This document shows positions 853 through 36,857 of a DNA stretch of 64,000 bases, one piece after another. Source of the DNA: Grammothele lineata (Eukaryota > Basidiomycota > Agaricomycetes > Polyporales > Polyporaceae); contig NDFF03000053.1 in NCBI GenBank assembly GCA_002150815.3, forward strand, positions 1 through 64,000. Direction: 5' to 3'. The position numbers and the translations under genes were made by a program. The notes under the pieces were generated by a model. That model was given only the letters and a program-made list of their open reading frames with translations, had not been told where the DNA came from and did not search any database. The number at the start of each line of letters is the position of its first letter. Within the stretch, counting starts at the first letter, position 1.

Positions 853-2243
853 GGATCGGTGAAAACAGTGATGACACTGATGTTGCTTGTGGCCACGTTG
901 GGAGCCTGAAACAGAGGTACAATGAACACGGTTCTAAGAAACATAGCCCCCGCCTCGTACCTCGGAGAGAAGAGTAAGCAACATTTGAAGGGAGTTGAGG
1001 ATGAATATAGTACTTGAGAGTGTGCCTGTCAACAAGTCGATCTCACAAAATGCTAACTACATCCTCACATGAAGTATACGGTCCCTTAAGAAAAGGTCTG
1101 CATTATCGCCCTCGTCCAGTAGTGGAGGCACAATTACGGCGCTCACCATCGACCAATAGGATAGTAGAGAGTGTGTTGGCTTCGAGTACGTTGGCATTCG
1201 TTCTTCCTCTGTACACCTTGTACCACGTCGTTCCAATTACGATGCCGTCTGCAACCATCAAAGTCGATCGAGACAATATTGTGACTGCGGGATTGCTTCA
1301 GTTACTCTACGACCGTAAAGAGAGGATAGTCGATGCTGACATCTGCAAAGAACCAATCAGAGTTCAGACAATTTCGAGCTAGAATAGATGACCTACAGTT
1401 TAGAGAGCGCCAGCGATACTGTGGAGCCCGATGACCATCCGAAGATGGGGACGAAGAACGCACTGAAGGTGGTGAGGCTGTACTATGAGTCAAGTCATCA
1501 TCAAACATTCCCGCCGGATAATACACCGTATATCCAGTTTGTAACTCACCACATTGATTCCAACCGAGACGAGGGAGAGGATAAGAACCGAAGCAGCGAG
1601 AAATTTAGATTGGCTCAGTGCTAGGGTGCGCATTGCTGAAAATGCTGCCCGATAGGTATCATTGACCCGCAAATGTAATGGCAGATAAACGTTGTAGCTA
1701 ACCGGCCCATGTGACATCCATCGCAAGGCTCAAAACGAACTGCGCGCGCCCTAGAATCAACGCTCTGTAGTCCAGGAATTATCAAGGTTTCAGCAAGAGC
1801 TCAAGTAGTCCACTAACCCCTGCAGCTGGGCTATGAGCAGGAGCAGCATGTTCGACAGCACGACTAGACCGTACCTCCGGGCTGAAATATGTAACATCTG
1901 CCTGAACAACTATGAGCCAGCATTGCACTATGAGGTTAAGATATCTGTTTGTGTTGAAGAGGACCGAGGCCCCGGTGACCTTCGTCGACCAGAAGTGCTT
2001 GACCTCTGCATCGAATGTGAGCAGATAGTCATAAAGTACGAATGCTAGTGGGTGATATGTCAATCTTATCGTTAAGGTGCCCTTATTATGAGGTGCCCAC
2101 CTGCTACAGCAACAGCGCAGTAGTTGCCGAGAAATCTGTAAAGGAGTATGCATTAAGCAGCCTAGTATTATGTTTGACACTGAGGCTACTCACATGCTGT
2201 TAATCGCCGCGATGAATGCCGGTGTATCAAGCTGTGACGCCAT
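853..2243 (-). pseudogene. DUF6533 membrane protein, copy A, missing its last exon
   Basis: First copy of the tandem family. Exons on the minus strand are 2243-2194, 2135-2101, 2044-1875, 1819-1818 (2 nt), 1764-1703, 1644-1550, 1482-1397, 1342-1341 (2 nt), 1284-1147, 1084-1069, 1012-961 and 905-853. The 2044-1875 exon encodes the DUF6533 signature (LYDYLLTFDAEV, then ASVLF and NRYLNL). The last recognised exon ends in VITVFTDP with a good donor (GTACGT), but the expected final exon beginning LTSILISRFLL is absent. A GC-rich tandem repeat sits in its place. All retained exons are in frame, so the loss looks recent or the copy may still make a C-terminally altered protein. The function of the family is unknown; it is a multi-pass membrane protein. 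Confidence 0.8.
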
Positions 2244-5200
2244 TGTCAAGTGTCAACTTGGTAGCTGCTTGAGAGCGTCAAGGCTAGCGTACCCTAGCCG
2301 CTATAAGTAGGACCTCTTTCTGATCAGTGATCTGCGAAGCGCCCCTGAGTACCCGGGGCGTCGACAGCTCAGAACAGATAAATCGCACCTGTGACTACCA
2401 ATTTATCGCATGGGCAATGAATGCCAATAATTGATTGAGGTCGTCGATGTCTTTTCGCCTGGTGATTGGCTAGTAAGATCAAGAAGCCAACGGGAAGAGG
2501 TACTGCGCCTTCTCTCACGTCTGAATGCGTGGGTGATACATCTCGCCCACCATTTACTTGTAAGTCTCGAGAACAACAGAAGTGATGCACATGACAATAC
2601 AGCTCCCATGGCAGATATTTATAAGGGCGTTGTAAGGTTAGATGGTTGCAAGAAGACGACTGGAGGATTCACAGTCAATGTCATTGACGGCAGAACCTCA
2701 GACGTGAGATGATGTGCTGTAAATTTGCGCGCCGCGTTGTGGATTTTCCGAAACAGATCGACGTATTCAAACAAGATAATTTGATACATCCGTCTGTACT
2801 CCGTCCTTCAGTGGAGCCAGTGAGCGCTATTGAAATGATAGAAGATGTCACTACTCGTGGAACTCCTTTGAGGACAGTTAAGTTCATCTGCGTCTCACGT
2901 CACAGTCCTTCGGTTTTGATGAACCGGTAACTGCTTCGAAATGCAAAGATGGAACGAGAGTCACACGACAGACATGATGAGCGGTGCGTGGAGTCCACAA
3001 ACACTGCCGACGAACCTGCGACGACGCAAGGTTACCGTTGGTTGCACACCTCCCCTCTTACTCAGAGATTCGTCGAATCAAGGAAATAGCCTTCTCCCTG
3101 TGAGCGGCACGTGTCATCAAAACAACCATGTAGGACACAGAAGGGTGGCGTACCGTTGTGTGCGGGGCGCAGCCTCCATCAAATTGCGTTACTGAATGAC
3201 CGTCTAGAGATAATGCAGGCCATTATTATGCAACTAGTGTGGCACGTCGAGCGTAAGCTCCCCTTCCACGCGCCACAGAGCGCGATCGCTCCGGGTAGTA
3301 GGTGGGCCGCGCCACACGCTGAGAACAAGGAACGTAGAATTAGCTACGACAATCCTTCGTTGACGTGGACATACCTTATGCATATGCATATGATAATGTG
3401 CTAGACGTACTCTTCAGTCCTGCGCAGGAGCACTCGTCCTTCTGACCCCGAGGATGTCGGCGTCTTGAGGCGCCGCGCATGTAGATGGAAGCCTCACACA
3501 GATGCAAGTCTCAGGCTTGTGCCGTATTTTGGACAGGAAATCCATCGCGCAGGGGCGAATGAGACTTCGGCGCACTTCGTCGACGCGAGTTTAGGCAATT
3601 CTCCCGCTGCGTCTCGCAGCAGGCGCACGATGCAGCCTTCAGCCTTGATAGCACCGGTCGTTCCTTCCTACACTCCTCTCAGTTCAGCGGCATGAAAATT
3701 GTCCTCTTCTACAGATTTGCTCACCTGGAGGGTTCGTCGCGCAGAGACGTGGTCGCATTGGAAGTGCGAGCTACGCCGGTTGTGATAATCACATTGCCAT
3801 TTGAGAAGCGTTGAGCTCTACTCAGTTATAGTGTCCTCAGTGCGCCGTGCGTGCTGGACGATGAGCGAGAAGTAGGAGCGTGGGCGGAAAGGGCGGAAAA
3901 TCTGAGTGAGATGGCCCGCCGCCGCTTACCTGAAGCCAATCATCATTCGAGATGGTGGCGATCCATTGGCGAGCAGTGTGTGCTCAACGATAGGAGACTA
4001 GTTGTACATGAAAGGGGTATAATTTGGAGCGAGTACAATGTGCGGCCAAGCATAAATCGCGAGTAGCGGTGAGTCCGAACGGTCCAGTTTTTGCGGCGAC
4101 TCACTGCACGAGTCGTCGCGTGTTGGTCGCGTGGCTCGGGCCGGACGGCCCGGGACCTCCCGCGCTGCGCAACAGTGCGCAACGGCAGCTTAGCGACTGT
4201 GAAAATCGTTTCGCTCTGTCCTTGAATTCAGAGCTTGCCTGAGCTACCACGCATACTTCGGCGCCGCTGAACAGAACTTCTACATCCCATCTACTTCTCA
4301 CTGTCTGCACTTAAGTCGACCACGTATCTCAACCTATCGACCTGCCGGCCAGCTCGTCTCTCGTGGACACCCAATCTACAAAGTCAACATCGTCTACCTC
4401 CAATCCATAGATTCTTTCGCGCTTGCCAACTCTAATCCCCTAAGCCATCTCCCTCAGTGTGGGTGACATTTCCCTCACCGTGTCTTCTCGGTCTATCTCC
4501 GTCAATGGCAAGCATAGACTCACGGTAATCAAAGTCCTACGACACCAAGACGAGGGCGCTATGTCAGCAACGCGAACGACAAGGATCAATTTAGAAAGGA
4601 TGGAGGGATAGCAGGAGAAGCCAGGCGTTTATGTAGGCAGGGCACTTAGCAGGAGAGGGAGAAGCAGAGCACTGACACCTTGCTCGGCACGCACGGTATG
4701 AAGCCCGTGACAGCGGCACCAAACACCAGAACGCCCGGTATACGCTCTCTACACCCGGATAGTGTCCAGTTGCATGAGAAGGTCAGTCTCTGGTGCCGTC
4801 TGCGACTTCTCTGAGCTCACTGCGTTTACACGCCGCTTGATTGCCCCTCCCTCCTCCTCAATGTCGCTCTCCCGTTTGGATCCTGCATCACCAGTCTCAT
4901 TCCGCCTCAATGTGGCCCCCAACGCTCCTACCTTTCTGACCTGATTGCTCCGCCGGGCGACATTCTTTCCGCGCTTCGGGTATGTTCTTCATCCTCCCAC
5001 ATCTTCAACTTCACCCCCCGCCAATCGCTGAACTGCCGGCCTTTACCGCAGGCTTTGTCCAAGGGATCCGTGTTGCATCTTACCGAACGCGGACGTCGTG
5101 GCGACGGGACTTCAACACTTTTCAGCCGATCGAGGGATACCGAGCGTGGCCGTGCCCGGCGGCGTGTTACATAGAGAAAGGAACTTGAGAGGACGAACGC

Positions 5201-6685
5201 GTGGTTGGGACGTGCTCGAGATACGGAGAACCCACTACTCGCACGATACCCACAGCACAACCGAGGACGACCACTCCACCACCGAATCATCCCAAAGCCC
5301 AGATTCCCGGTGGACGTTGCCTGCCGCAAAAAGGGCGACCTCCCCTTCAACGCTGGTGTTCATTGTTATCGTCCCTGTGAGTATCATTTGACTACACTGT
5401 TACTCTCGTTGTATGCGTATCCTCGTTCCTGGCAAGACGGGCGTTTTCGATGTGCTCTTGGTGCTGCATCGACGATCTCCGCCTTGCTTGTGGCGGGTCA
5501 CACAGTCCCAGCGTAGTGAAGACACGAGAAGAGCCAGCGCTTTCATCCCTCTTTCTGCGTCCTCATACGAAGATCTGACCTTTCACAACCCCAACAGGAC
5601 GCTGCGCCTTGCTGTATCGACACCTATGAAAGTCGCGCTTCGAGCAGTATGTGGATGCGGATCCCGCCCCATGCCAGTACCGACCAGGGCAGAACAAGAC
5701 GAATGCGACAGTGAAGGTACGTTCTCTTCTGATCATCTCTTGCGCTGTGGAGCTGACACCGCTCAACCCCTCTTAGCTTACGATTGAGCTTGCACAATTC
5801 GGACGCTAGAAGCACGCCGACCACGTCATCACTTGCGAAAGGTAGACTCACTCGGCCTCCGACATTGTCTCGAACGACGACGTCTTCAACACAGGTCTCG
5901 CGCGTGCGATCTCGACCTTCGTTACGCCGTACCACGTTCCCGGATGTCATCTGCGCGGTGGAGCACATCCTCCTCAACGTGCTCGTGCTCCGTCGTGAAA
6001 CCGTATGGTCCTTGGACGTGGGATAGAAGCGCTCACCATGGCTCTCACCAAGCCTGTCCCGAACAATGAGACCCACCAGCCGCTCCCTTCGTGTACTACG
6101 CCATACCTAGCCCGACCGCGACTTCGAACCAAACGTGCGCGCGCAACCGCCGCTCGCGTACTCGGTCTAGACGTCGAACGACTTGATGGACCTTCCAGGC
6201 GCGCGCGAGCCCGAGCGGGGAGCTGGTCCTCATGGCAGAAGACGCGCGCGACCCGGCCGAACACTCCTGCGGCGGCGCTCTGCGGGGTTCCGGCCGACGA
6301 CACCGGCGGCTCACCCTGTCCTGGTGCGGAACGAGCAGAGTTGCTCGCTGCCTTCTACTGCGTTGCGCGCTCAGCAGGCCGTCGTCTCTCCGCTCTGCTT
6401 TGAACTGGTGTAGGTGTCCGTCGTACATATCCACCACCACCACCCCACCATCCCACCCGCACATCCTCGTTTAGCATTCAGCCCCTTCTCCATACATACG
6501 TCCATATATATATAACTCGATCTCGCCCTTCCTCTTCACGATGTATTGACTTCGACATTCTTCTAGTCTTATACCTTTGCTACTCCATGGCTCTACTTCT
6601 CCGCTTAAGTTGGTGGTGTACAATAATTTCAGCGACAATAAGTTCTCCCTCAAGCCTTCGCATACTTCGCGTAGTATGCCAACTA
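2244..6685. other. Spacer between copies A and B; decayed plus-strand segment
   Basis: There is no intact gene. The plus strand at about 5000-6400 contains splice-like signals, for example an intron-like stretch from about 5719 ending in CTTAG near 5776, and many short open frames. Related segments recur between the other DUF6533 copies, so the spacer appears to have been duplicated along with the genes. I could not assign it to a protein family. Confidence 0.45.
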
Positions 6686-8409
6686 CTACGCCACGTCCTC
6701 GCCTTCAGTCTCCCTGCTCTCCGCTACCGAATCCACGACGTCGGTAACATCATCGTCATCCCCAGACTCATCCTCGAGCTCGCCCGCGCGGAAGTGCTCC
6801 GGGCCGATGGACGCCGCGACGGAGCCTATAACGCGCTCGAACACGACCGAGTCGAAATCCGCACTCAGAGAAGCATGAGCGGAGGCTCTGTTCGCGGCTT
6901 GAAGGTGGAGAAGGAAGCGAGAGATGAGGATGGACGTCATGCTGCGTGTGATGAGTGAGTTGTCAGACCGTCGGTCGAACTGAAAGAGAACGCGGGGGAA
7001 GGGCGACGTAAAACGTACGGATCCGTGAAGGTGGTGATTACGCTGGCGTTATCGGTTTCGTCTGACGCCTGCGCGTACAAAGAATGAGTAATTCCTTCGA
7101 ATGTAGCAAGCCCAGGTGTGTACCTCCGACAGAAGAGTGAGCACCAAATGAAGCGTGTTGAGCGCGAGAAGGGTGCTTTGGAGTATGCCTGTCAGCCGAG
7201 CGCATCAAACGCTGCATGTATACATACATGAAATATACGGTTCCTGAGCGAGGGGTCCTCTATATGAGCCTTGCGCCTCGCGGTTTATGCATATATAGCA
7301 ATAGTACTCACCATCAATCAGAAGGATACCTGAGAGTGTGTTACACCCAAGTACGCCCTTGACTCGTCCCCTGTACAACTTGTACCAAGTCGTCGCGATT
7401 ACGATGCCGTCCGCAAGTATGAGTGTCGATCTAGACAGTATGGTAACTATAGAGCGATCTCAGTCATCTCAGCAAGGAGTAGACAGATGATGGCAGACAC
7501 CGACACCTGTAAGCAAAGAATGAGAAGGCATAGCGCTGTATGAGAAGAGATGGATTACAATCTAGTAAGCTCAGGGGGATCATCGTGTCCCGCTGACCAT
7601 CCGAATATGGGAAAATAGAAAGCCTCGAAATTGCTCATGTCGAACTGCAACATTAAGGCACAGCTCAGGCTCTCTGGATAATACTCTAGACAAACGTATC
7701 GCCACTCACCGCATTGATGCCAAAGGAGACGAGCGATAGAGAGAACACGAATGCAGAGAGGGGGCGAGACTGAGTAATGGCTAAGATACGCATCGCCGAA
7801 AATCCTGCCTCGCGAGAACTATCAACATATGAACGCAGAGCGACATAACACCAACCAACCGGCCCATGGGATATTCATCAGAAGGCTCAGCGTGAATTGT
7901 GCACGAGACAGCATCAGTGCTCTGGAGTTGGTAGAGGAATTTTCAGTAACAACACACGCATTGCGCCGTGCCCGAGCACTTACCCCTACAACTGAACGGT
8001 CAGCGGAAGACGTATACCCACCGAAAAAGAAGATCATACCGTTTCGCTAATAGATAGCCAGCCCACCATGAGCATAACGAGCCAGGACTCCGCTAAAAGG
8101 TTGAGATATCTGTTTGAGAGGAAGAGTACCGAGGCGCCAGTAAACTTCGTCGACCAGAAGAGCTTGACCTCCACGTCTAAGGTAATTAGGTGCTCATAAA
8201 GTACGAGTACTGATAGCCTATATGTAAATGGGTTTGATATCGTACACCTGCGTTGAAGTACTTGCCTGATGCCGCAAGGGCGCAATATTCGTTGAGATAC
8301 CTGCGATTAGTATACGTCAGCCTGAGGATACGTGATATTGAGCCCGACATATCACTTACCCATTGCTTATCTCTGCCGCAAACGCCGAGGGATCAAGCTG
8401 TGAGGCCAT
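6686..8409 (-). CDS. DUF6533 multi-pass membrane protein, copy B
   Basis: Intact 336-aa gene of unknown function, predicted to be a plasma-membrane or endomembrane protein with about seven hydrophobic segments. Exons are 8409-8360, 8300-8266, 8209-8040, 7985-7984, 7921-7860, 7804-7710, 7644-7559, 7506-7505, 7446-7312, 7243-7228, 7175-7124, 7068-7019 and 6941-6686. The DUF6533 block is at residues about 29-85 (LYEHLITLDVEV, then ASVLF and NRYLNL). Later family motifs are FSAMR, FYFPIFGWSAG, LFTILSRSTL, DGTVYF and ILISRFLLHLQ. The tail is acidic (DESGDDDDVTD). Two exons are only 2 nt long (GG and GT); without them the frame breaks. The donor at 8265 is GC (GCAAGT). The start is the conserved MASQ codon shared by copies A-E. 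Confidence 0.9.
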
Positions 8410-12474: not shown

Positions 12475-14215
12475 CTACGCAACAAGCTCTTTCCCGGGTT
12501 TCTGTTCCTCGGGCGTCGAATCCGTCCCGCTTTCCTCATTCCAAAGCTCGTCCTCGATCTCGCCGGAGGCGAAGTTCTCTGGACCAATGGACGCTCCGAT
12601 GGAACCCACAACGCGTTGGAATATGATGGAGTCGACGTCCTCACTCGAGGATCCTTGGACGCATTCTCTGCTTGCAGCTTGAAGGCGAAGTAGGAAGCGA
12701 GAGACGAAGACGGACGTTAGACTAGGTGAAATGACAGATACATGTCAAATTGTGTATCCAATAGAGAATGACGAGGAAGCATAGTGAGAAACGTACGGGT
12801 CAGTGAAGATTGTAACAACACTGATGTTATCTGAGGTCGCGTTTGAGGCCTAGATTGCCTGTTTAATGGATGAGATTTGACGAAACGCTAGATTTCTCGT
12901 ACCTCGGAGAGAAGGGTGAGGAGCAAGTGAAAGGCGTTGAGAACGAGAAGCGTGCTTGAAAGCGCCTGTTAGACGAGCAGATCTGACCTTAGTGGGACGC
13001 GTACGCACATAAAATATATCGTTCCTGTCCAATGGTAATCTAGCATGAACGTCCTCGCCCCGTGATACAACTACTTGAGCGTGGTCACACTCACCATCCA
13101 TTAGCAGGATGCTCGAGAGCGCGTTAGCTTCGAGTACACCCGCGACCCTGCCTCTATACAACCTGCGCCATGTTGTTCCAACGACGATCACGTCGGCAAG
13201 CATCAAAGTTGATCTAGAAAGAATGGTGACTGCGGGGTAGTCTTAATTAATTCAGTAGGTCCTCATGGGCTGGGATGTACTGACAGCTTTCAATAACAAA
13301 TCTCGCTCAGGATTTGGAAGAATCGTGAGAGATACAATGACTTACATTCTAGAAACTGCCAACGAGTTTGTGACCCCCGCAGACCATCCGAAGATAGGAA
13401 CCTGAAATGGCTGGAAGGTGCTTATGTCGTACTATGATTTGAGTCATTAGTCGAAGCGTTCGCATAGTACGATGTACGACTTTATTTTAACCCACTGCAT
13501 TAATTCCGAACGAGACCACTGAGAGAGCGAAGACAAATGCGGAGAGGGATCGACTTCGACTAAGTGCCAAGGTGCGCATCGCTGAAAATGCTGGGCGACA
13601 AGAGGCATCAATACGCTAGCATAGTGTGAAACAAACCTCGGAACTGACTGGCCCATACGATATACATAGAAATCTCAAGGGCGAACTGCATACGCGATAG
13701 GTGCATTGTTCTGCAATCCCGGGTCCCGGGTCCGGTAATTTAGAAAGATTCCGGAAGAGCGCAAGTAGTGACTTACCCCTGCAGTTAAGTCGTGAGCCAC
13801 AGTATCATACCCAACGAAGCAGCGTCGTACCTCTGCGCTGATAGTGACAAAACACATCCCCACAACGTTGATCAAGCATTCCGCTACGAGATTGAGATAT
13901 CTGTTTGCGAAGAAGAGCACTGACGCCCCAGTAAGCTTTGTCGACCAGAAGTACTTGACCTCAGCGTCCAAAGTCAGCATGTGGTCATACAGGACAAGGG
14001 CTGGTGGACCATCCGTCGATGTTAATTTCAGGATGATCGTACTTTGTGGAGCGCTTGCCTGATGCAGCAGTAGCACAGTAGTTGTCGACAAACCTACGAA
14101 GGAGCATGCGTTAGACACCATGATACTTATTCGAATACACAAGATACTACGCTCAGTGCACTCACAACGCATTTATTTCCGTAGCCAAAGCCGATATATC
14201 AATCTGTGAAGCCAT
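12475..14215 (-). CDS. DUF6533 multi-pass membrane protein, copy C
   Basis: Intact 334-aa paralogue with the same 13-exon layout: 14215-14166, 14093-14059, 14000-13831, 13778-13777, 13710-13649, 13590-13496, 13431-13346, 13286-13285, 13229-13095, 13024-13009, 12954-12903, 12849-12797 and 12721-12475. The DUF6533 block reads LYDHMLTLDAEV, ASVLF and NRYLNL. The last exon starts LTSVFVSRFLLRLQ and contains IIFQRVVGSIGASIG. The two 2-nt exons are GG and AG on the plus strand (CC and CT in gene sense, read as GG and CT). The intron after exon 2 has a GC donor (GCAAGC). No stop interrupts the spliced frame. Function unknown; role in the membrane inferred from hydrophobic segments only. Confidence 0.89.
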
Positions 14216-17167: not shown

Positions 17168-18927
17168 CTACGCCGATTCCTCGTGCTCAGTGGTTCTCCC
17201 TTGGAGTTCTACTTCCTCTTGCACCATATCTGTACTAGCTTCCTCATCCCAAAGCTCATCCGCGTGCTCGCTGGAGGCGCCAAAGTGCTTTGGTCCGATG
17301 GACGCCCCGATGGAGCCTACGACACGCTGGAATACGATCGTGTCGACGCTTTCGCTCAAAGTCTCCTGGCAGGACGTTCTGTTTGCGGTTTGAAGGCGGA
17401 TTAGGAAGCGCGAGATAAGAATTGAGGTCAGTCTGCGTGAATGTGGAGTCGCATCAAGCTGTGAGCCGAAAGAGTAGATGTGGGGAACATGTAGTGAAGA
17501 GCGTACGGATCAGTGAAAGCGGTAATAACGCTCCCGGTGCTTTCTCCGCCCGATGCCTAAATCACAAGTGCGTTCGATATGAGTCAGAGAGGCTTAGTCA
17601 TGTTGCAACGTTCATACCTCGGAGAGAAGAGTGAGCACGAGGTGGAGAGCATTGAGGACGAAAAGAGTGCTTTATAATACACATTCTAGATTAACAATTC
17701 CATGAAACGGAACCAGTACACGCACATGAAATATATAGACCCTGCACAGGGATAATACCGTTTAATTATTCTCGTCCACCGGTATAAGTTTTGCCGCGAC
17801 GAGAGCACTTACCATCGACCAAGAGGATGCTCGAGAGCACGTTTGTACCCATTGCACCCCGGATCCTTCCTCTGTATAACTTGTACCATGTTATTCCAAT
17901 GACGATACCGTCGGAAAGCATTGATGTTGATCTGGAGAGTGTGGTCACTGTAAAATAGCCTAAGTTTTTACATTCAGGCCTGAAAACAACGTCGCTACTG
18001 ACACCTGTGAGGTGAAGGTGAATCGGAGTATCGAATGATTGTGCCTTTCGTAACAACTTACAGTCTCACGTCTTTTAGCGATACAGACGGACCCGCCGAC
18101 CATCCGAATATAGGGAAATAGAAGGTACTGAAGGTGCTTATATCGTACTATGAATTCAACTATTAGCTCACACATCCAAATAGCGCTTTATATATCTTGA
18201 CTGAAGCTTACCGCGTTTACGACAAACGAGACAATCGACAGAGCAAACACGATAACGGAGAGCAACCGGGACCGGCTGAGGGCCAAAGTGCGCATTGCTG
18301 AAAATACTGTTCGACTTACGGTTATTGAGGTACACATGGGTCCACATGAACGCTTCGACGAACCTGACCATGGAATCGACATTAAGATGTTAAGAGCAGC
18401 CTGTGTGCTCGCCAGAACCATTTCCCTGCAATCCGGGATTTGTGAAAGATTCAGCGAGAGTGTTAACAGCCGCCACTAACCCCTGCGCCTCAACCGTCAG
18501 CCAGAAGAGCATATTCCACAAAGGATTTTCGGTACCTCTTGGCTGATAGATACGAGGCCTATCACCATAGCATTGAGCCAGCATTCCGCGATAAGGTTGA
18601 GGTATCTGTTCGCGATGAAGAGAACTAATGCCCCAGTGACCTTCTTCGACCAGATGTAATTGACCTCCGCATCGAATGTAAGTAGATAGTCATAGAGGAC
18701 GAGTGCTGGCGAGCTATCTGTGAGTGCTAATCATATGGTGCTTCTGCTCTAACGAGGGGCACTTACCTGACACCGCGATCGCGCAATAATTGTTGAGAAA
18801 GCTGAAAAAAGTGTAGATCATCAGCCTGAGGCAACATGGCACTTGACCCGATGCGCTGATAAGAAGGGGCTACTTACCCGCTGTTTACTTCCGTAATCAA
18901 CGCGGACGTATCAAGCTGCGAGGCCAT
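17168..18927 (-). CDS. DUF6533 multi-pass membrane protein, copy D
   Basis: Intact 343-aa paralogue. Exons are 18927-18878, 18801-18767, 18717-18536, 18482-18481, 18425-18364, 18306-18212, 18147-18062, 18004-18003, 17947-17813, 17741-17726, 17669-17618, 17556-17507 and 17432-17168. The third exon is 12 nt longer than in the other copies (182 against 170 nt). The DUF6533 block reads LYDYLLTFDAEV and NRYLNL. Later motifs are FSAMR, FYFPIFGWSAG and LISRFLIRLQ. The introns flanking the first 2-nt exon are 53 and 55 nt with CTGAC and GCTGAA branch-like sites. Those flanking the second are 57 and 55 nt. The donor after exon 2 is canonical (GTAAGT), unlike copies B, C, E and F. Confidence 0.89.
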
Positions 18928-21429: not shown

Positions 21430-23107
21430 CTAGGCTTCCTCATTGCAGGTTCCATTCGTTGGACTAGTCGGGATCGCCCCCGAGTGATCAATGGATGCCC
21501 CCAGCGATCCTATGACGCGCTGAAATATGATAGAGTCGCCCTCAGTGCTGGAGAGCCCGGACGTGGAGGCTCTGTTGGCAGCTTGGAGGCGAAGAAGGAA
21601 CCGGGAAATAAGGACGGATGTCAGGCTACATGGCGAGAACAATGCGATCAGCCACAGAGGGTTGAAAGAGAAAGAGATATGATGGAGATTCAAAGGGCGA
21701 CGTACGGATCGGATAACGAGGTAACAACGCTAATGCTGTCGCCAACATCTCCCGCCTAGGTTACGGATCAACGGAGGAACGTTACCGTGAGGTGTCTTTC
21801 ACTCACAATTGACAGGAGAGTGAGCGCCAGGTGTAGAGCATTCAAGAGCAGCAGGGTACTTGGCGATGTATATTTATTAGCTGGCGCAAAAATAAAAACT
21901 ATATCCATACATAAAGTAAATTGTGCCTAGGCACGATGGTACATGAGCGTCACGCCGAAACTATTGAGCAGCAGTGACGGTGCTTACCATCAAGTAGTAC
22001 TATGCTTGAGAGTGTTTTCACGCCGAGAACACCCTGAAACCGTCCGCGAGATAGTTTGGACCATGTCGTCCAGATCACGATAATGTCGGAAAGCATTTGA
22101 GTCGATCTGGATACTATCGTCACTGAAAGATCGTATGAAGTTGTGATCTTGTGACTGTTGACATAATACATGCTCACGTCTACCCCAAAGCCAATCAGCG
22201 GACAATACAAAGCAGCAGCATAATCTGACTCACATTTTTGCAACCCCCAGCGGTTCAGTGGCCGTGGTCGACCATCCAAAGATGGGTGCATAGAAGGAGC
22301 GGAATGTTGAAACTTGGTACTAAACCGGAGCTGCAAATTAGCCCTACTTGAGGATTACCGGAGCATCTCTCTCATTGCTTACCATATTGACTCCGACCGA
22401 CACAGCGGATAGTATGAATACAAGAGCGGCAAGCAAGCGGCTCCGGCTGAGCGCAAAGGTTCTCATTGCAGAAAATGCTGTCCAGTGGTATTTAGCATGA
22501 AATTTACTGCGTGAATCTGATTCGCAATTGCTCTCACCTGACCATACCAAGTACATCAAAAAGTGGAGAGTTTCTTGCGTACGTTCATAGTCTAGACCGC
22601 TGGGTTATGTAGATTTGTGAATAGAACTGATGTATACGACCTGCGGAACCCACCCCTGCAATCATGCCGTGGTTGTGAGTAACTGGTCGCGTCGTGAGAG
22701 ACGGAAATATACCTCTGCACTGAAGGTATCTACAAACGATCCGATGACAAACAGCCACCCCATTACGATGATGTTGAGGTATCGATTTGCAAGAAAAAGG
22801 ACAACCGCTCCGGTGACTTTGGGGGTCCAGAAGTATTCAATCTCAACATCAAACGTCAGGAAGTGTTCATAGAAAACAAATGCTACAATGGAGAAGCTTA
22901 GTAAAGCCGCTGCGGTGTCTGCGTTGCGGGTTGAATACTCGCCTGATGCGGCAATAGTGCAATAGGTATCCAGCAGACTATGAATGAGTGAGGCGTAAAC
23001 CCAGTTCAATCAGTGAACCATCTCTCCGTTACGATCTGTGGTATTAAGACAACGTACTTGCTGCTCACCAACGCAATGATCTCGGATGTCTCCGCTTGTG
23101 AAGCCAT
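21430..23107 (-). CDS. DUF6533 multi-pass membrane protein, copy E
   Basis: Intact 316-aa paralogue, the shortest because its last exon is shorter. Exons are 23107-23058, 22977-22943, 22882-22713, 22655-22654, 22599-22538, 22477-22383, 22319-22234, 22179-22178, 22122-21988, 21926-21911, 21858-21807, 21755-21706 and 21625-21430. The DUF6533 block reads FYEHFLTFDVEI and NRYLNI. The last exon begins LTSVLISRFLLRLQ. The intron after exon 2 uses a GC donor (GCGAGT). The 2-nt exons read GG and AC in gene sense. The spliced frame is open throughout. Function unknown. Confidence 0.89.
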
Positions 23108-24349
23108 GGCAAGGGTAAGAAGCTGTGGGGAGCGGGAGATCGAGCTGCGGTGAACACAGCCCGATCTTACTTATGTACTATTCCCGATCGTCAGGTTTTT
23201 GCGGCAGGCTTCACAGAGATAAAGAAAAGGCGAAGCACATACCCGCTCACCCTACTGACCGGCAATTGTGCGCATCAACGTCTCCACTTCGCGATGCGCC
23301 GCCGTAGTAGTAAGACGGCGGCGCCGGAGCCTGTTGCTAACTATAGGCTCATGGCAGTGCATCTAAACGTGGAGGCAAAGAGATGTTGTCGACATTCCAG
23401 GTAATGTAGTACGGATGCAACACTTTTAAACCCACTAGGTTCTCGTCGGCTTTAATCCAGATAGTATCTGTCTGAAGTTTGAACGTGTGGGCTACAACCA
23501 GAAGTTACAATCTCTGCGAAACGATTATCTTGAGCCTCCACGCCGGACGCTCAAACTCCCAAGAACTTCAGTGGACAAAACTTCCACCGACAGTTTCAAA
23601 TCGTCGGAGCAGTGCTTCCACAAATTTTATCTCACCCGTCCAATCTAAGTTCATCAATCGTAACTTCCTAAGTGTCAGCAGAATGCAAACTTGGCCCCTA
23701 TCCTGACTCGGAGACGTCTTCGACCCAAGTGAATGTGCCGCGCATCGACTCGTACGTGTGCATACCGGAGGAGTACCGCATACCTTGAAGCTTGGACGAA
23801 TGCGGTGCATCGTGGCGCATTAAGGAGGTCAACCACCGCGAGAAAGAGGTCAAAGCGTGGACGGACCTGAGAATGAGAGGGCGCTGCGTCGACTGGGGCA
23901 GCGTTGAAGCGCTATGATTCGTCCTAGCTGGGCTATTCTTAACTGCCTAAGTGGTGCAGAATTCTATCACAAGAACACTGGAAATGAGCTGGGCTAGAAT
24001 CGGACAGCAACCGCACCTCTGAGTCACTGCAGCGGATCGCAGGTAATATCACCCCGGGCGCCGTCCGAGTCTCCCTACATCCGAAATGACGTCTCCGTGA
24101 ATGGGCTCAGGTTAGATACTCCAAGATACGTCGAAATTTTCGTCTTGAACAGCCCTCTTCGCGGCCTGTTGCTGAAGATCTCAGGCCCTGTATTCGGCGG
24201 ACTCAAGGCTCAGCGCTCAGTACTCAGTCACCGGTATGGCTCACGCCGTCGGATTGGGCGTCTAATATAGTCCCACCCGCGCGACGAACTACGTCATAGG
24301 CGGTCATGTCGCGCGCGCACTCCATGTCCTCCTCTCGCGATGTACACTC
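23108..24349. other. No gene recognised
   Basis: About 1.2 kb between copy E and the calcium uniporter gene. It holds only short frames without family motifs. It should include the promoter of the uniporter gene and the 5' flank of copy E. Confidence 0.5.
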
Positions 24350-25924
24350 GTGCGACACCCCCTTCCCCTTTCCTTCATCCACATGCACCGTCTTGTCGGC
24401 CTTCGTCTGTGCCAACACCTCGCGCGACGACCTCCTTGCGCCCCCGCACCCTATCCACCCCGAACACGAATACAAGGGCAAGCCACATACCCAACCTCAA
24501 TCCCGGTATTCCTTTTAGCGGGCATACGCCACGCCACTACAAGTACTGCCACACCGCCAGAACACTCCCTTTCTCACAAGAGCGCGCAAGGAACCTCGGC
24601 TCAAGAGGCGGAGAATACGAATGTCGCGCACGCACGGTTCATCGCGGAGGCGTCCAAGAATGACCGGTGGCGACGTGGAGAAGGAGAAACGGGTAATGAA
24701 AATGGAAGAAGAAACAGCGTGTCCGGAGGCGAGGGCGAGCATGAGCTGAACGGAGAGGACTTCGAATCATTGACCGAGGGGAAGGGTGAGTCTTGCCCCC
24801 AACGCCATCTACGAGATCCCAATATGCTGACACGGACGTCGGAAACACACGCATATATGTGGACAGGAAAACTCTCACCCACATCATCCCACCTCTTCAA
24901 GCTCATCCTCCCCCTCGGCGATGCGCGCAGTCGTGTCGCAGGCCGCGGAGGCGCACTGCAGACTCCTCCACCAACCGTATTCCTCCTCCATCCTTCCCAA
25001 CCTCTCTCGCACGTCGCTCGCCTCATCGTAGCATCATTCGCACCTGCCGCGCCGGAGATCTCCTTCCGTAGCGCCGCAGCCCCTGGAGCTGGTTCGCGCG
25101 TCGTGCAATGGGCAGACTCGACCGATGTCGCGGACTTTATCCGCGACGCATCGCGCGCGCGCGAGTTCACCGTTTGCATCACGCCCACCCGTTCCCCCTC
25201 TCCTGTCGCTGGTGAGGACGCGTCAGAAGCAACAAAGATGCAAGAGACGCACATCCCCGTCGAAGTTCCCTCGTTCGCAGATCGGACGCGTTTCCTCCGC
25301 CGCAGGCTCGCGCGCGTCGAGGCCGAGCTCGCTCGAATGGAGGAGCTGAAGCATGCGTGCGACGTCGAGGCGCACCGAGGTGCGCGACGCATGGCTGTCG
25401 GGGGGTTCGGCGTGCTCATCGTGTATTGGGGCGCGGTTGCGCGACTGACGTTCTGGGACTACGGGTGGGACGTCATGGAGCCGATCACGTACCTCTCCGG
25501 GTTGTCGATCGTCATTCTGTCGTATCTGTGGTGAGTGCAACGTCTATTTTGTCCTCCTTCGCATATTCGTATCGTCGCTGACTCTGTGTGCCTGTTGCCC
25601 ATTAGGTTCCTGCGCCAGGGGCGCGAGGTGACGTACTCGTCGCTCTTGCACCACTCGGTGTCCGCGCGGCGCGAGGCGCTGTACAAGTCTCGCGGGCTAG
25701 ACATCGAAAAGTGGATGGACCTGATGAGCGAGGCGAAGACGATCCGGCGAGAGATCAGCAAGATTGGAGAGGACTATGACGAGCAGCGCCGGCTGAAGGA
25801 CTCGGAGACCTCGGATGACAGCCGTCGGAGCGTAGAGGAGCGCGAAGAGGTGGACGAGACGGAGACGGAGGAGCCGGAGGAAGAGGAGTGTAGAGAAGAG
25901 ACCTTGAGTAGAGAACGAACATAG
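24350..25924 (+). CDS. MCU: Mitochondrial calcium uniporter pore subunit
   Basis: Pore-forming subunit of the calcium uniporter of the inner mitochondrial membrane. Exons are 24350-24785, 24867-25530 and 25606-25924, giving 472 aa; an in-frame ATG at 24383 would give 461 aa. The 81-nt first intron is a multiple of three and is supported by its GTGAGT donor and CTGAC branch site; retention would also stay in frame. The selectivity-filter motif WDVMEPITY is at residues 346-354, between two hydrophobic segments. It is preceded by a coiled-coil-like region rich in Arg and Glu and followed by RQGREVTYSSLLHHS and a second coiled coil. The N terminus is Arg-rich with few acids, as in a mitochondrial presequence. 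The last 50 residues are strongly acidic. Neither an EMRE-like nor a MICU-like gene is seen nearby. Confidence 0.95.
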
Positions 25925-30024: not shown

Positions 30025-30531
30025 TGGATGGAGTATCGTACTTCTTCTACCGCCATCCGGCCTCCGTTCCTTTTCACTGCCCTTCTCTTCTCCTTCAGAG
30101 GTGTCATATGCTTTTACTTCTCGTATTTATTCCCCTCAGAAAGTCCAGCGAGCCTCTATGAGCTGTACTTGTGTCAGAACCACTCGTAGTGTGGTGGATC
30201 GTCCGTCACTACATTCTGTAACCCCAATAGTTCCTCGTGTGCCCTTCTCAGAAGACACGGCGCATGCTTTCGCGGCAAGGCGTCTTCTACGACGTGCCAA
30301 GTGTTCGGGTTTCCTCGGCGCGGACCGTTCGGGCCGAATGTTCCGGAGAGCAACGACGGCCTTCGTGGCTGCACTCTCGCTTGTTTCCCAACATTCGCCG
30401 TTTCCTGCTCGCTCTCTCGCCTCTGCCCATCTCTTTTCGTTTACTCCAGTCATCACTTTCTCGGAACCTCAATAGCAGCATTGCAGCTCCTTCGTTGAAC
30501 GGACTGACTCTGGCGTGGAGGCGCGGGAGAC

Positions 30532-32672
30532 ATGAACGATGACTACAAGTCGTCTAAGGAGGCGTTTGTGTCGGGAATGACGGGCTCGACGATAGGGCAT
30601 ATCAACATGGTGTCGCTGGTCTCCTTGGTATGTGGTAGACTCTTGCTCTGATGGTTAGTGTGCACTTATATCGGCTAGGCCTCAATAGCCCTCCATTCTG
30701 CCGTACGAACACGCCTTCCTCCACCACAACGCGCACAATTCTTGGCCGAGGCGTGTCTCCTCATCCTACCCCTCCTCCTCTCCGTCACGCTGTTCGCCAG
30801 CTCGCCTACATGGCTTTCGGTCCTTCTCATTATCCCCATCGCCCTGTTATGCTTCCTACCCCACCGAGAGTCAGGCACCTATCTACCGTCCTCGCATCCC
30901 CAAAGTCGCGCCTCCTCCCGCTCGTCCAATCCCTCTCGTGAGCCAAGCCCCTCGTGCGCATCAGTCATGCACATTCCGCCCCTTCCCGCCCTCACGACAT
31001 ACCGTGCACACATGCTTCTCCTCACCTTCATCTGCATCCTCGCGGTCGACTTCCCCGTCTTCCCCCGGTTCCTCGCCAAGTGCGAGACCTACGGCGTCTC
31101 TATGGTAAGTTTCTACCACGTCTCGTTTCCTCACTAGTGCTGAGAGTCTCAAGATGGATATCGGTGTCGGGTCCTTCGTCTTCTCCCAAGGCATTGTGTC
31201 CGCCATACCCCTCGTCAAGAACCCCGCGCACCTTACCGAACCCCTCATTCCCAAGCTCGCGAATTTTTTGCGGAAGTGCTCCCCTGTTCTTCTCTTGGGC
31301 TTGTTGAGGACAATCTCGGTGAAGGGCACAGAGTACCCAGTGAGTCATTCCTCGCTGTCGACTTCCCATCTCCTATTGAACGCTCCCCGTTCCCCAGGAA
31401 CACGTAACGGAATACGGAGTACACTGGAACTTCTTCATCACACTTGCGATTCTACCCATCCTTCAAGTGGCGCTACATCCGTTAATGGTGTACGTTCCCA
31501 TATCCATGCTGGGGATTGTAGTCGCTGTCTGTGCGTATCCACCACCTCCTCTCGCGAACACCGTCTTGACACGTTGCGAGCCAGCACATCAGCTAGCATT
31601 GTCCATGGGGAAGCTTGACCAGTTCATACTACATGCGCCGCGCGAAAGCCTCGTTTCCGCGAACAAGGAAGGTCTGATCTCTGTCACGGGTGAGTCTCAT
31701 GCCTACGTTTTCTTCAACGCCATATCGCAAAGTCGTCCTCTTGTGTCTCTTGAGGTTCTGCGTCTGCGTCCTGAACGTGTTTATATCCAAGTCGAGATAC
31801 TAACTTTACTCTGGCGTAGGTTACCTCGCGATCCATCTTCTAGGACTTTCAACCGGCACTCTTATTTTAGGCCCATCCCCGTCCTACTTTCGCCGGCGGC
31901 AGCAGCAGCTCGCACGCGGAACCAACACCCGACGGCGTCCTTCCGCCAGTGATTCGGACTCAGACGACGACGTCCTACCTCCGCCACCACCTCCAGCCCC
32001 TTCGTCTTCCTCGCCGACTACCTTGTCTCCTGATGCGAGCTCACCTACCAGCCCTCTCCCTCCGCCACCTGCGAAGGTGGGGCTCCGGAGGGAGAACGAC
32101 AAGACAGCTACCGAGCTCTGCTCCTACGCCGCCCTCTGGTGGATCCTCCTCGGCGCACTCACTCTCATGCGGACAGGTGGAGGCGTATCGCGCCGGATGG
32201 CTAACCTGCCATACGTCGTGTGGATAGCAGCATTCAACACGACATTCCTCACCGGGTACCTGGTCCTCGACCTCATCTTCTTCCCCTCGCCGCTGTCCAA
32301 ATCCGTCTACTCGCCCCACTCGAAGCTCAAAGTTCAACCAGGTCGCGACGCTCGCGGACGGAGTGCTGCAGTAAAGGAGAACGCCGGTGCAGGAACGGGC
32401 GCGAGTGCGCCCCCACTTCTAGAGGCGATCAACAAGAACGGGCTTGTGCTCTTTCTGCTAGTGGGTCTCCCTGTTCAAATTGCGCAAACGGGCCGCTGAC
32501 ATAAGCAACGGGCGTCTGCGCGCAGGCGAACGTCGCGACGGGTCTCGTCAACCTGTCGATGCCGACGATGTACATGTCCGACTGGGCAGCAATGCTCGTC
32601 CTCACGCTGTACAGCTTTGCCGTAGCTGCAATCGCGTGGTCGTGCAGACATAGGAAGGTCTGGCGGTTCTGA
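30532..32672 (+). CDS. GWT1: GPI-anchored wall transfer protein 1 (inositol acyltransferase)
   Basis: Acylates the inositol ring of glucosaminyl-phosphatidylinositol in the ER, an early step of GPI anchor synthesis. Seven exons: 30532-30627, 30679-31104, 31154-31339, 31398-31530, 31585-31689, 31820-32460 and 32526-32672, giving 577 aa. The N terminus [21 protein letters not shown] matches the family opening closely. Further landmarks are [50 protein letters not shown], and a C-terminal [19 protein letters not shown]. The protein is multi-pass. It is longer than yeast GWT1 (about 490 aa) because of a Ser/Asp/Pro-rich stretch in the sixth exon ([16 protein letters not shown]) and a second hydrophilic insert before the last TM. 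It is a housekeeping gene; the nearby surface-protein cluster would depend on the same pathway if any member is GPI-anchored. Confidence 0.95.
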
Positions 32673-33693
32673 GCCACGGTCCTGAATGGCCGCGTCCCTC
32701 GAAGTTCAAACATACCCGGAAGACGAAGACAACATGGTCCATCGAGGTGGCGTTCCGGATATGTGGGCGCCGTTTTCTGACTGTTCGAGTGGCAATGACG
32801 CTGTGTAAGCACTCCGTCTGCCAACAGCGGCACTCCGCGAAGGAGGACGGGGTTCCGTGTCGGGGTAGTTGACGGTCTGTGATGCGCTGCGCGATGTGGT
32901 AGTATTGAGTGGGTTAGGAGGTCTTTGTACCAGTGGTGTGTGACCTCGCTGTTGAAATTGTATCTAAATTCATCATGCGCAGGAGACGTCACAGTCGAGT
33001 AGAATTCGGTCAGAGTCTCCAGTACTCTCGATTTCGACGAAGTTCTTAAATCTACTCCGTTGGCGGCGTTACCCCGCATGATAGAGGATCATCCGTCTCC
33101 CCAAGAGGTGTCGGCCGATGACTCCGAGTCATTCATTCGCGCTTCCCGAGGGCCGGTATTTCAATCACTAAATGTCCATTCGCGCCTCACTCATCGTCGA
33201 GGTAAGTTTCACAATCAACATAATGCGCCCCCCGTCAGCATTTGGGCTGCTGACGGTGTGTTCGCCAGTACCGCGTACTCCATCACCGCCTCAATCCCCG
33301 CTTATGCGCTGCCTACGGCCGCCGCACCGCAAAACGCACGCCTATGTGTTCCGCTCCAACCATCGTGACTGCATCTTCATCACCGACCGTCGGTCCCTCT
33401 TCTGGCGCCCCGCACTATCATCCACGAAGCCCTCCAGGTGAAACCGCGTGCAGGCTATTAGTAGCGACGGGTTCCCATGTTAGTGACCATTATGCAAAGC
33501 GCTGACGTGCATCACCCACCCTACATCGCCAGACAACTAACTCTACGGAACAGTGCAGGGTGTACGGATCACATACCCGTACCCCGAATATAAGAGAGGG
33601 CCGCCTTCTACTGCCGCAGATCAACCACTTCTCAGATCAGCTTCTCTGTGCCCCGGTCTTGCTCATCTCTAACTCGCGAAGTGCTCAGCCAAG
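32673..33693. other. No gene recognised; promoter of the dioxygenase
   Basis: Only short frames without motifs. The stretch should contain the 3' end of GWT1 and the 5' flank of the dioxygenase gene. Confidence 0.5.
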
Positions 33694-34682
33694 ATGGCGA
33701 CTACACCCAACACCGACGCGACGTGGGCGCCGCTCGCGCATCCTGGTAAACTCTGGCAATGGATGAGCCATTTCCGCTCGTTCCTCTGGGTACAGCTCGG
33801 GCACGACAACCCGCTTGCGTGGAAACTCGGCATTGTCGGTAGGCGGGAGAATGAGGATCTCGAAGGTGAGCTGAGAATGGGTTCCGCCTGTGGTGCCGGC
33901 GCTGACGACTAGCCTTCCGCTGACTTACCCTCGTCTCGCATAGGCCCATTCTACATTTTAGGCCCTCCTTCCCGCCAGATCGACGACGGCAAGGCGGTTC
34001 TAGCGCCCCCTGAGATTCTGAACGGTGCGCAGACATCTTCCTCTACAACGCCTTCCCCACTCACGCTACTCTTACGTACGCCTTAGAGGGCCATGTATAC
34101 CTTTGGCTTCTCGAGGTCAAGGACGCCAAGGGAGACCCGCTTCCGTTCGCCCACGTTGACCTTTGGCATTCCGACGTCAAGGGCGACTACTATTTGAGGA
34201 CCTACACCCTCCGCGGGACGGCAAAGACGGATGCTCGTGGGCGTCTTGAAGTCCTGACGGTGCGCCCTGGGGAGTACGCAGGCAGGAACGTTGGACACAT
34301 CCACGTCATCCTCTCCGGTACTGTCAACAGACAGCACAAGAGCCTGACTTCCCAAGCGTACATTTGCCCCGGGAATGATCCCATGAAGATGGACCGCGAC
34401 TTGTACGTATCGTTGTCCGAGTGAGCAACTTGCGGCGAACTTTTCTCTGACGCTCGTGGACTCTACCCTAGTTTGAACTACTGGCGCCCCCGTCCAGACC
34501 ACAACGTCACGAAGTCTTGGACGGTCGGCGCGGAGAACAAGAGATACTTCGAGTTGCCTGAGCTTCCTCTAGACGATGTTGATGCGCTAGAGAGCGTCGT
34601 CTGGTGGAACTCGAAGCTGAATGAGCATGGCATCGCCTCACAAATCGTTGCAGTTGGTCGCCATACGTTGAAGCTGTCTTAG
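33694..34682 (+). CDS. Intradiol ring-cleavage dioxygenase
   Basis: A non-haem Fe(III) enzyme of the catechol/hydroxyquinol 1,2-dioxygenase fold that opens dihydroxylated aromatic rings, probably in breakdown of lignin-derived aromatics; the exact substrate cannot be read from sequence. Exons are 33694-33865, 33944-34024, 34087-34402 and 34472-34682, giving 259 aa. GPFYILGPP (residues 58-66) is the family opening. The expected iron ligands are visible: a Tyr at 119/120 in GDYYLRTY, Tyr148 in RPGEYAG, and His155 and His157 in GHIHV. There is no signal peptide, so it is probably intracellular. The donors include GTGCGC, used elsewhere in the window. Length is typical of the shorter fungal members. 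Confidence 0.9.
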
Positions 34683-35058
34683 CGCGATGGTACCTAAGAT
34701 CCTCTTCATCTCCACGTAGGTAGTCCTCTTCAGCATATTCTGCGATTTATGTACCCATCCGCGTTAGCGATCGTTCCCTCTGCTCCGCTGGAAACGTGTA
34801 CATCTCGTCAGAGTTGTACTTCCTTACGCCATGGATCTCGATATACCTCTAATCATTTTCGAAGCCAGCACTGCTGCGTTTCGTTTCTAGAGAACGTGTA
34901 TGCGGGTCACTATAGGATACAAGCCTTGAAGCACAGTTGACCCAGAACTGAGAAAGCCGATCTACGTTCTACTCCGCCTCGCCCGCTGGGTAGCCTAGTA
35001 TCATCGCTGTCAATACATTATCCTCTACCTAACGCCGCTCTACATTCCGTCAGTACCA

Positions 35059-36857
35059 TTATATTACCGCCTCCCTCACTGCAGTCACAGAAGCTACTGG
35101 TGCATTGTGTGCATCAATGCATTGCGTACCCTCTTCGGTTTCGTTTGCAGCAGAATCCCTAGGCCGAATGGATGAGGTAAGGGAGCCCATGACCCTCTCG
35201 AAGACGACCGATTCCATGTCTGTGTTTGACCCATCGGACGTGTGGGCTGACGTTCTACTTGCGCGTTGAAGGTGAAGGAGGAACCGTGAAATTAGGAGAG
35301 ACGTGAGGCTGGATAGCCCATACACCATTAGTATTTGTCGATAGAAGCCGAAGGCGCTACCGTATAAGTGATTGAAGAAGTACGCACGGATCCGTGAATG
35401 TTGTCATATCACTAACACCAGAGGCTACATTCTTGACCTGAAAGAAATGATCTGTACTGGAGCACACCATCCGAGTAGCAACGCCGTCAGGCTATCGTCA
35501 CCTTCGACAACAACGTAAATGCCAAGTGAAGGCAATTCAAGGCGGTCAGAGCCCTATGTATACAACGTCGACACGTCACATCATTGACTAAATCCATTGA
35601 AGAGGTTACGAGCATGAAGGACACACGTACAAATAATAGATTGATCCTGCATAACCCAAGGTTCGGGGAATGAGTACTATACGTTGCTATGAACCACTGT
35701 AACGAGTCTCACCGTCAATTAGAAGGATATTAGACAGCTTGGTGGGGCTCAGAACGCCCTCCATCTTCTTCGTGAATAATGTGTACCATGTTGTACAAAT
35801 CACGATGCTGTCCGAAATAATCAACGCCGATCGCGTTGTGATAGTCACTGTCGAGAAATATCACAGCCAACAGCTTGGATGATTCGCTCTGTAGTCAATC
35901 AGGTGCAGCGCTTACGTCTGCAAGTAGTGCGTTAGTACATGTCATAATGGTTCCAATGAGGCAGGCCTGCCTACATATTGACGACTGCCTGCGACTGGAT
36001 GGTGCTCGCTGTCCACCCAAACGAGGGGTAATATAAAGAACGAATTGTCGTGAGCAGGTACTGGGTGCGAACTCGTCATTGAGCCGGTAGTACTCCGGGT
36101 TAAAGGACAGAATAATTGAGTTACTACTCACTACGTTGGACCCAAATAGCGCTAATGCGAGGACGAAGACAAAACATGCTAACAGCCGACTCCGGCTGAG
36201 CGCGAAGGTTCGCGTTGCGGAGAACACTGTTGGGTAGGATCTCTTGATAGAGAAACATGAATTTATTATTAGTTATACCTACCTGGTAATACGAGGGACA
36301 ATAGAGCTCCATTGGCAACTTTCTGGGCAAACACAAGACTAACTCCGCTATTACGGGCATAACGTTCTGAGCTTCACTCAAAGAGAACATCATATCCAAT
36401 GGAGAACGTACCCCTATATTGCGGTGATGAGTAGGAGTAACATTGCGCACCGCAATATAGTGCATACGAACCTCAGCAGTATCAGGTACATAGGTTAGTT
36501 GGATGATGTAAAGAAAGGCGTTGGCAAAGATGTTGAGATATCGATTGGCGAAGAACAGCACGGCCGCTCCAGTGATCTTCATAGACCAAAAGTATTCCAC
36601 TTCCGAGTCGAGTGTTATGAGATACTCGTAGAAGATGAGAGCTGGTGCAGCTCAATGTTAAAAAATCATCTAGAACACATAAACACGACGATCTTGCCCG
36701 GTATCGTTACGCTGCAATAGTTTTCGACAACGCTGGGGAACACGACGTTCAAGTCAGCCAAACATTGATCAGCTCGTCAAGGCTCCATTCACTGAAGCAC
36801 TTACCCACTGCTTATTGTCGCAATCAGCTCCATGATATCTGTAGTCTGGGATGTCAT
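35059..36857 (-). CDS. DUF6533 multi-pass membrane protein, copy F (divergent)
   Basis: Intact 344-aa member separated from the tandem array by about 12 kb of other genes. Exons are 36857-36805, 36732-36698, 36641-36472, 36413-36412, 36371-36283, 36226-36132, 36060-35975, 35917-35916, 35847-35713, 35646-35631, 35553-35502, 35437-35388 and 35308-35059. The start is MTSQTTD rather than MASQ. The DUF6533 block reads FYEYLITLDSEV and NRYLNI. FSATR, PSFGWTA and LLISRFLLHLQ follow. Exon 5 is 27 nt longer than in the other copies, and the intron before it is only 40 nt, so that acceptor is the least certain. The 2-nt exons are GG and AC in gene sense. The intron after exon 2 has a GC donor (GCAAGA). 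Confidence 0.85.

Follow-up and report, generated by a model that had tools for sequence, protein, structure and literature searches.

Results

Six DUF6533 gene copies and their predicted 2-nt exons

The window, by which we mean the whole 64,000-nucleotide stretch of Grammothele lineata DNA analysed here, carries six copies (A to F) of a DUF6533 gene, all on the reverse strand. Copies B (positions 6686 to 8409; 336 aa), C (12475 to 14215; 334 aa), D (17168 to 18927; 339 aa), E (21430 to 23107; 316 aa) and F (35059 to 36857; 336 aa, with an exon 5 longer by one codon) are each modelled with 13 exons, and their spliced models have no internal stop and stay open to the stop codon. Copy A (853 to 2243) is open over exons 1 to 12 and is missing the last exon; its exon 12 ends at 853, with GT next. 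The models of copies A and B were built by hand, after which a custom spliced aligner was used that set no limit on exon length and a minimum of 40 nt for introns. Exon lengths in the window models are 50 to 53, 35, 170, 2, 62 to 65, 95, 86, 2, 135 to 138, 16, 52, 50 to 53 and, for the last exon, about 200 to 265 nt. The original prediction of five genes open over 13 exons held, with its protein range of 316 to 344 aa corrected to 316 to 339 aa. When copy B was scanned, residues 22 to 66 matched Pfam PF20151 (DUF6533) with 58 bits against a gathering cut-off of 24.1.

Several other features of the window were noted. The 16-nt exon 10 (e.g., 7228 to 7243), a third very small exon, has the same length in all 57 models that reach it (59 models in total). 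Intron 2 has a GC donor in four of the six window copies (B, C, E, and F; e.g., 8210 to 8265), and GC donors occur in 24 of 325 introns that do not adjoin a tiny exon. Just past the end of copy A, positions 660 to 761 hold a GC-rich tandem repeat whose units measure about 10 and 22 bp. The forward strand carries matches to the mitochondrial calcium uniporter (24266 to 25531; PF04678) and to GWT1 (31804 to 32496; PF06423), both ordinary fungal nuclear neighbours.

Two of the modelled exons are only 2 nt long: exon 4 (ME1, at site 1) and exon 8 (ME2, at site 2). ME1 reads GG in every window copy, at 1818 to 1819 (A), 7984 to 7985 (B), 13777 to 13778 (C), 18481 to 18482 (D), 22654 to 22655 (E) and 36412 to 36413 (F), all on the reverse strand, and is preceded by cag or tag and followed by gt in 6/6 copies. 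ME2, on the same strand, reads AT at 1341 to 1342 (A), GT at 7505 to 7506 (B), CT at 13285 to 13286 (C), GT at 18003 to 18004 (D), AC at 22178 to 22179 (E) and AC at 35916 to 35917 (F), as confirmed by reading the DNA. All 12 dinucleotides lie exactly where they had been predicted, each directly after AG and directly before GT. In copy A, ME1 supplies the first two letters of the codon GG|A (Gly86), and ME2 completes CT|AT|TCACA, which reads LFT. The predicted phase gaps were also borne out by the gene models: the phase changes from 0 at the end of exon 3 to 2 at the start of exon 5, and from 2 at the end of exon 7 to 1 at the start of exon 9, and both junctions need 2 nt (modulo 3) to keep the frame. 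The introns adjoining the tiny exons in the window range from 52 to 68 nt, a narrower span than the predicted 40 to 68 nt.

Adjacent short introns in a fungus are the setting in which stwintrons (nested introns) have been described (PMC6616335), and on this model each composite gap would be removed with no nucleotide retained. Excision of the whole composite, however, leaves the frame two nt short at each site in 6/6 copies. Without ME1, a stop follows 1 to 72 residues beyond the ME1 codon in copies B to F, and paralogs with a single intron at site 1 (below) retain the codon. We give the nested-intron explanation almost no weight.

It is also conceivable that the tiny exons exist but are left out under certain conditions, such that premature stops and mRNA decay would switch the gene off. 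The length of neither exon is divisible by three, early stops arise in copies B to F whether ME1, ME2 or both are skipped, and a Trichoderma micro-exon has been described as a switch (PMC11121469). Unregulated splicing errors would nevertheless give an identical picture, and we regard regulated skipping as unlikely.

Distribution of the tiny exons across the genome

The genome surveyed comprises 41.8 Mb in 252 contigs, and the window is positions 1 to 64000 of its contig C49. A protein search gave 136 exon matches among the matches listed; the best candidates were scored, and 58 stretches were fetched around most of them. Weak or partial matches (L045, L063, L065, L091, and L095) and overlapping ones (L092, L094, and L096) were left out early, and L093.1 was left out of the tally as a duplicate. 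In all, 58 copies were examined, including the six in the window.

ME1 is present as a 2-nt exon in 48 of the 54 copies that span site 1, comprising 42 called by family-profile alignment, four from other runs (F, L056, L084, and L085) and two by eye only (L086 and L087). Five of the other six have the codon in a normal exon, with one flanking intron absent, and the degenerate L051 lacks ME1; L042, L043, L058, and L064 do not span the site. For ME2 the count is 55 of 56, namely 54 from family-profile alignment plus L071 from other runs; L087, which gave no clear call, makes up the total, and L043 and L059 do not reach site 2. The tiny-exon codon falls in a single alignment column in 38/38 cases for ME1 and 50/50 for ME2 (52 aligned models). 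ME1 had been predicted to read GG always, which is true of the window (6/6) but not of the genome, where the 42 automatically called genes read GG in 22, AG in 8, AC in 3, GC in 3, GT in 2, AT in 2, GA in 1 and AA in 1. For L064, a gene without ME1 and with an exon of 85 or 79 nt was considered, and its DNA, when read, pointed instead to a 5'-truncated copy.

Introns adjoining the tiny exons average 57 to 59 nt genome-wide. The composite gaps measure 103 to 155 nt, and other introns 62.8 ± 8.9 nt (n = 325), 0.3% of which reach at least 100 nt. These figures bear on the possibility that AG-NN-GT is incidental and that the flanking exons are joined in frame by a single longer intron using a shifted or GC donor or a different acceptor. 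With the family profile, site 1 was indeed bridged by a single long intron in F (125 nt), L056, L084, and L085 and by a path with a GC donor in L086 and L087, and single queries took such paths in more copies. The paths, however, differ between copies and require introns of 108 to 129 nt, a length that few other introns attain. Forbidding the tiny exons lowers the alignment score in 34/41 genes (below), and three paralogs, L076, L088, and L070, carry exactly the codon that a tiny exon would supply. We consider a single long intron very improbable. A related proposal, that ME1 is fused to exon 3 in L086 and L087, was dropped, as a GT donor with cag-AG-gt is also present in both.

The DUF6533 copies are clustered on contigs C49, C129, C179, C29, C2, and C76, with partial copies (A, L042, L043, L058, L059, and L064) among them. 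The alignments of L044, L049, and L056 needed a skipped base, and L042 and L043 are the two halves of one split gene. Together with the degenerate L051 and the missing last exon of copy A, these could be read as signs of pseudogenes, and one could argue that the copies are decaying and that the tiny exons rescue frameshifts on paper only. Against this, the same two-nt offset falls at the same codon in 48/54 copies, the window alone holds five complete open frames, and constraint is seen by codon position (below). That the copies are decaying pseudogenes is highly improbable in our judgement.

In the split gene (C179, around 49,000 and 40,900), exon 5 is interrupted by about 8 kb of inserted DNA, and a 6-bp repeat (GTTCTT) marks the two broken ends. 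The inner insertion end beside L042 resembles, on the other strand, window positions of about 600 to 790 next to the truncation of copy A. Because of this resemblance, the truncation of copy A may go back to a mobile element of the same kind.

Chance and coding constraint

AG-NN-GT with both introns at least 40 nt long arises in about 14% of shuffled composite introns (0.136 and 0.147). A single gene consequently proves little, and the weight of the argument comes from recurrence at the same codon. The product of the shuffle probabilities has a log10 of −38 and −47, values too extreme for a literal reading given the kinship of the copies; since the copies are related, these probabilities must not be multiplied.

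Sequence identity was compared among 11 copies (A to F, L040, L041, L057, L060, and L072). The four flanking introns are barely more similar than when shuffled (0.58 against 0.57, 0.56 against 0.53, 0.58 against 0.56, and 0.57 against 0.55), and GG at site 1 is kept in 11/11 copies. Exons 3, 5, and 9 show identities of 0.64 to 0.71 against 0.58 to 0.60 when shuffled, and the mismatch rates by codon position (0.39, 0.27, and 0.55) indicate coding constraint.

Comparison with proteins of other species

An other-species profile was made from seven proteins (P0001, P0002, P0006, P0007, P0008, P0011, and P0012) that were picked as intact at both sites, a choice that favours the 2-nt-exon reading. 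It was applied to the 41 genes in which the family profile had already called both tiny exons. Compared with forbidding exons shorter than 7 nt, allowing them raised the score in 34/41 genes, by a median of 12.7 half-bits; with AG and GT at these positions altered in silico, a gain was seen in 5/41 (p = 2.7e-7). The gain was nil or under 0.5 half-bits in 7/41 genes, including copies A, where ME1 brought no clear gain, and E, where neither ME1 nor ME2 was preferred. On its own, the other-species profile recovered both tiny exons in 18 of 59 runs (D, L044, L060, L066, L067, L068, L072, two genes of L077, two of L078, L079 to L083, L085, and L090), one in 29 and none in 12, and queries with single other-species proteins frequently took other local paths.

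Two lines of evidence are independent of the choice of the seven proteins. The first comes from the five paralogs with a single intron at site 1. L076 reads GTG TCG GAC AAG, intron, AGC TGC; its exon 5 has 64 nt (2 + 62), and the downstream intron is absent. L088 has the same layout, again with an exon 5 of 64 nt (2 + 62). L070 reads CCT AC, intron, G TGC, with the two nt at the end of exon 3 and the upstream intron absent, and its sisters L069 and L071 share this layout with one extra codon before the cysteine. In the DNA of the single-intron paralogs the ME1 codon is plain coding sequence, whatever proteins are chosen for the profile. No single-intron relative with the ME2 letters in a larger exon was found among the 58 copies of the same genome.

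The second is P0001, a protein of 401 aa with the source label 'lgn' from a contig of 1735 bp, which shows no gap at either site when compared with L082. Twelve introns at 45 nt each, the minimum in our models, would together with the 1206 coding bases exceed 1735 bp, and we therefore infer that P0001 derives from a spliced transcript contig. Three other proteins were tried as rulers. P0203 and P0205, which likewise come from short contigs, fall in other DUF6533 branches and are uninformative on both sites, and P0209 lacks site 1 and departs from the family past site 2. Contig collections, viral and genomic, were scanned for a second genome with these genes, and no relative was found in them.

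Public gene models were then compared by means of 137 homologous proteins, the named ones of which we take to come from polypore genera; 105 of the 137 have the exon-6 anchor. By a simple pattern at site 1, 37 of these 105 have the expected residues and spacing, a few of them loosely (e.g., P0009 and P0121). In 38 the cysteine is in place and the pattern fails upstream, which in some is natural variation (P0036) and in others a clear insert (P0061 and P0076), and the remaining 30 are otherwise different. Two strains of Lentinus tigrinus differ just at site 1, with P0043 intact and P0060 gapped, and P0070 intact and P0091 with an insert; such pairs point to annotation rather than biology. Extra residues occur at site 2 in P0005, P0009, and P0010. 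The 2-nt exons are the likely explanation of why public DUF6533 models are often wrong at these sites. This anchor-based listing replaced a profile-based indel count over the 137 proteins, which was confounded by length differences between subfamilies.

The original prediction, made from sequence, was that each gene has two conserved and real 2-nt exons that gene finders miss. The four tests beyond the window (52 further copies, the proteins of other fungi, five paralogs with a fused codon, and in-silico destruction of the sites) support it and agree with one another, with the exceptions given above.

Discussion

Proposed splicing of the tiny exons

AG-NN-GT stands at both sites, the frame needs the two nucleotides, the same codon is concerned family-wide, and in single-intron paralogs that codon is fused into a larger exon. 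From this we infer splicing in vivo with inclusion of the 2 nt, constitutive inclusion, and sequential removal of the introns. We have high confidence in the reading that each gene has two predicted constitutive 2-nt exons between ordinary short introns, included by intron definition, with the introns most likely removed in turn.

Under this reading, each short intron (52 to 68 nt in the window) would be recognised across itself. The two neighbouring introns would most likely leave one after another, as an exon of two nucleotides probably leaves no room for simultaneous occupation of its acceptor and donor. In C. elegans, micro-exons are reported to depend on PRP-40 except where an adjoining intron is very short (as little as 49 nt), a result that its authors read as intron definition (PMC8378409), and that interpretation would fit the present genes too. 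As for order, the fraction of introns with a canonical branch site was 0.69 and 0.72 upstream and 0.39 and 0.44 downstream of the tiny exons (36 genes), and the upstream intron might leave first. Intron 5, which adjoins no tiny exon, has a similarly low fraction (0.47; 36 genes), so the branch-site argument is kept only as a weak one and upstream-first removal is offered as a weak guess. We also observed that the donors of intron 8, which follows ME2 (e.g., 1285 to 1340 and 17948 to 18002), have C or T at +3 in 16/36 genes (GTCAGT and GTTAGT); the corresponding figures are 11/36 for intron 5, 4/36 for intron 4 and 0 to 2/36 for most other introns.

Origin of the intron pair

A quick maximum-likelihood tree of 63 rows, rooted at the midpoint, places genes with both introns in each of its two main clades, and the tiny exons most likely predate the clade split for this reason. 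The three genes with the downstream intron only (L069 to L071) form one clade with a support of 98, and the two with the upstream intron only (L076 and L088) lie apart. The simplest history is an old pair of introns two nt apart, of which the downstream one would have been lost at least twice (L076 and L088) and the upstream one once (L069 to L071). Loss as the direction of change should be taken as presumptive, the root being a midpoint.

Comparison with known systems

A close parallel is Fusarium CYP621A, for which a 1-nt exon with SRA read support is described and nearly all public models are reported to be wrong at that point (PMC12940212). In both systems a fungal exon of less than 3 nt is deduced from a phase mismatch and AG-N-GT or AG-NN-GT, lies inside a conserved motif, is kept over orthologs, and can be measured against a relative with fewer introns (intronless for CYP621A). 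CYP621A, however, is an ascomycete P450 with a single 1-nt exon backed by reads, whereas the present exons have 2 nt, occur twice per gene, are predicted from DNA, and belong to a seven-helix family of which one genome has dozens of copies and both kinds of single-intron paralog. The same source cites exons of 2 to 5 bp, the size class considered here, for Arabidopsis, Drosophila, and human (PMC12940212).

In plants, 1-nt exons of APC11 and VPS55 are reported as proven by RNA-seq and RT-PCR (PMC4674806, PMC8831610). As described there, they resemble our predicted exons in being constitutive and sub-codon, and some copies hold the nucleotide in a larger exon after intron loss; they differ in being 1 nt long and in occurring in low-copy plant genes. 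Among the P450 genes of Phanerochaete chrysosporium, likewise a wood-decay basidiomycete with short introns and very small exons, the shortest exon in the cited account is 6 bp (PMC1184071). Ascomycota stwintrons, as described, also involve neighbouring short introns removed in sequence, as we propose here, but retain no exonic nucleotide, whereas here two must stay (PMC6616335). Our search of the open-access literature on very small exons turned up, among the hits listed, neither a basidiomycete 2-nt exon nor a gene containing two exons of sub-codon size.

Significance for the DUF6533 family

DUF6533 proteins of this group are predicted to be seven-helix membrane proteins. The DUF6533 protein SNB1 has been called seven-helix but outside the receptor classification (PMC10949477). 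A cysteine pair in helix 3 and loop 2 (residues 84 and 151 of P0008, the codon after ME1 encoding the first) was present in 18 cases, absent in 31 and one column off in 3, and the window copies have lost both cysteines. Judging from these sequences, the family may have a receptor-type seven-helix fold, with the two cysteines retained or lost as a unit.

Dozens of genes with two 2-nt exons, together with five single-intron paralogs, constitute a natural series for testing the lower limit of exon size. With it one can ask how the spliceosome copes with an acceptor and a donor that nearly touch, in what order the introns leave, and whether recognition across short introns is sufficient. For annotation, gene finders need a sub-codon exon state, and a number of published DUF6533 proteins are likely to be wrong at the top of the third helix, beside a cysteine that resembles one half of a receptor-type disulfide.

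A broader reading, which we think improbable, is that the roughly 100 2-nt exons of this one genome are the largest natural sub-codon set, kept since before the clade split, and that such exons would be routine for the spliceosome of this fungus through strictly ordered intron definition. With the frame lost after any slip at one of the two sites, the pair would then act as a double proofreading gate on the expression of a receptor-like seven-helix repertoire.
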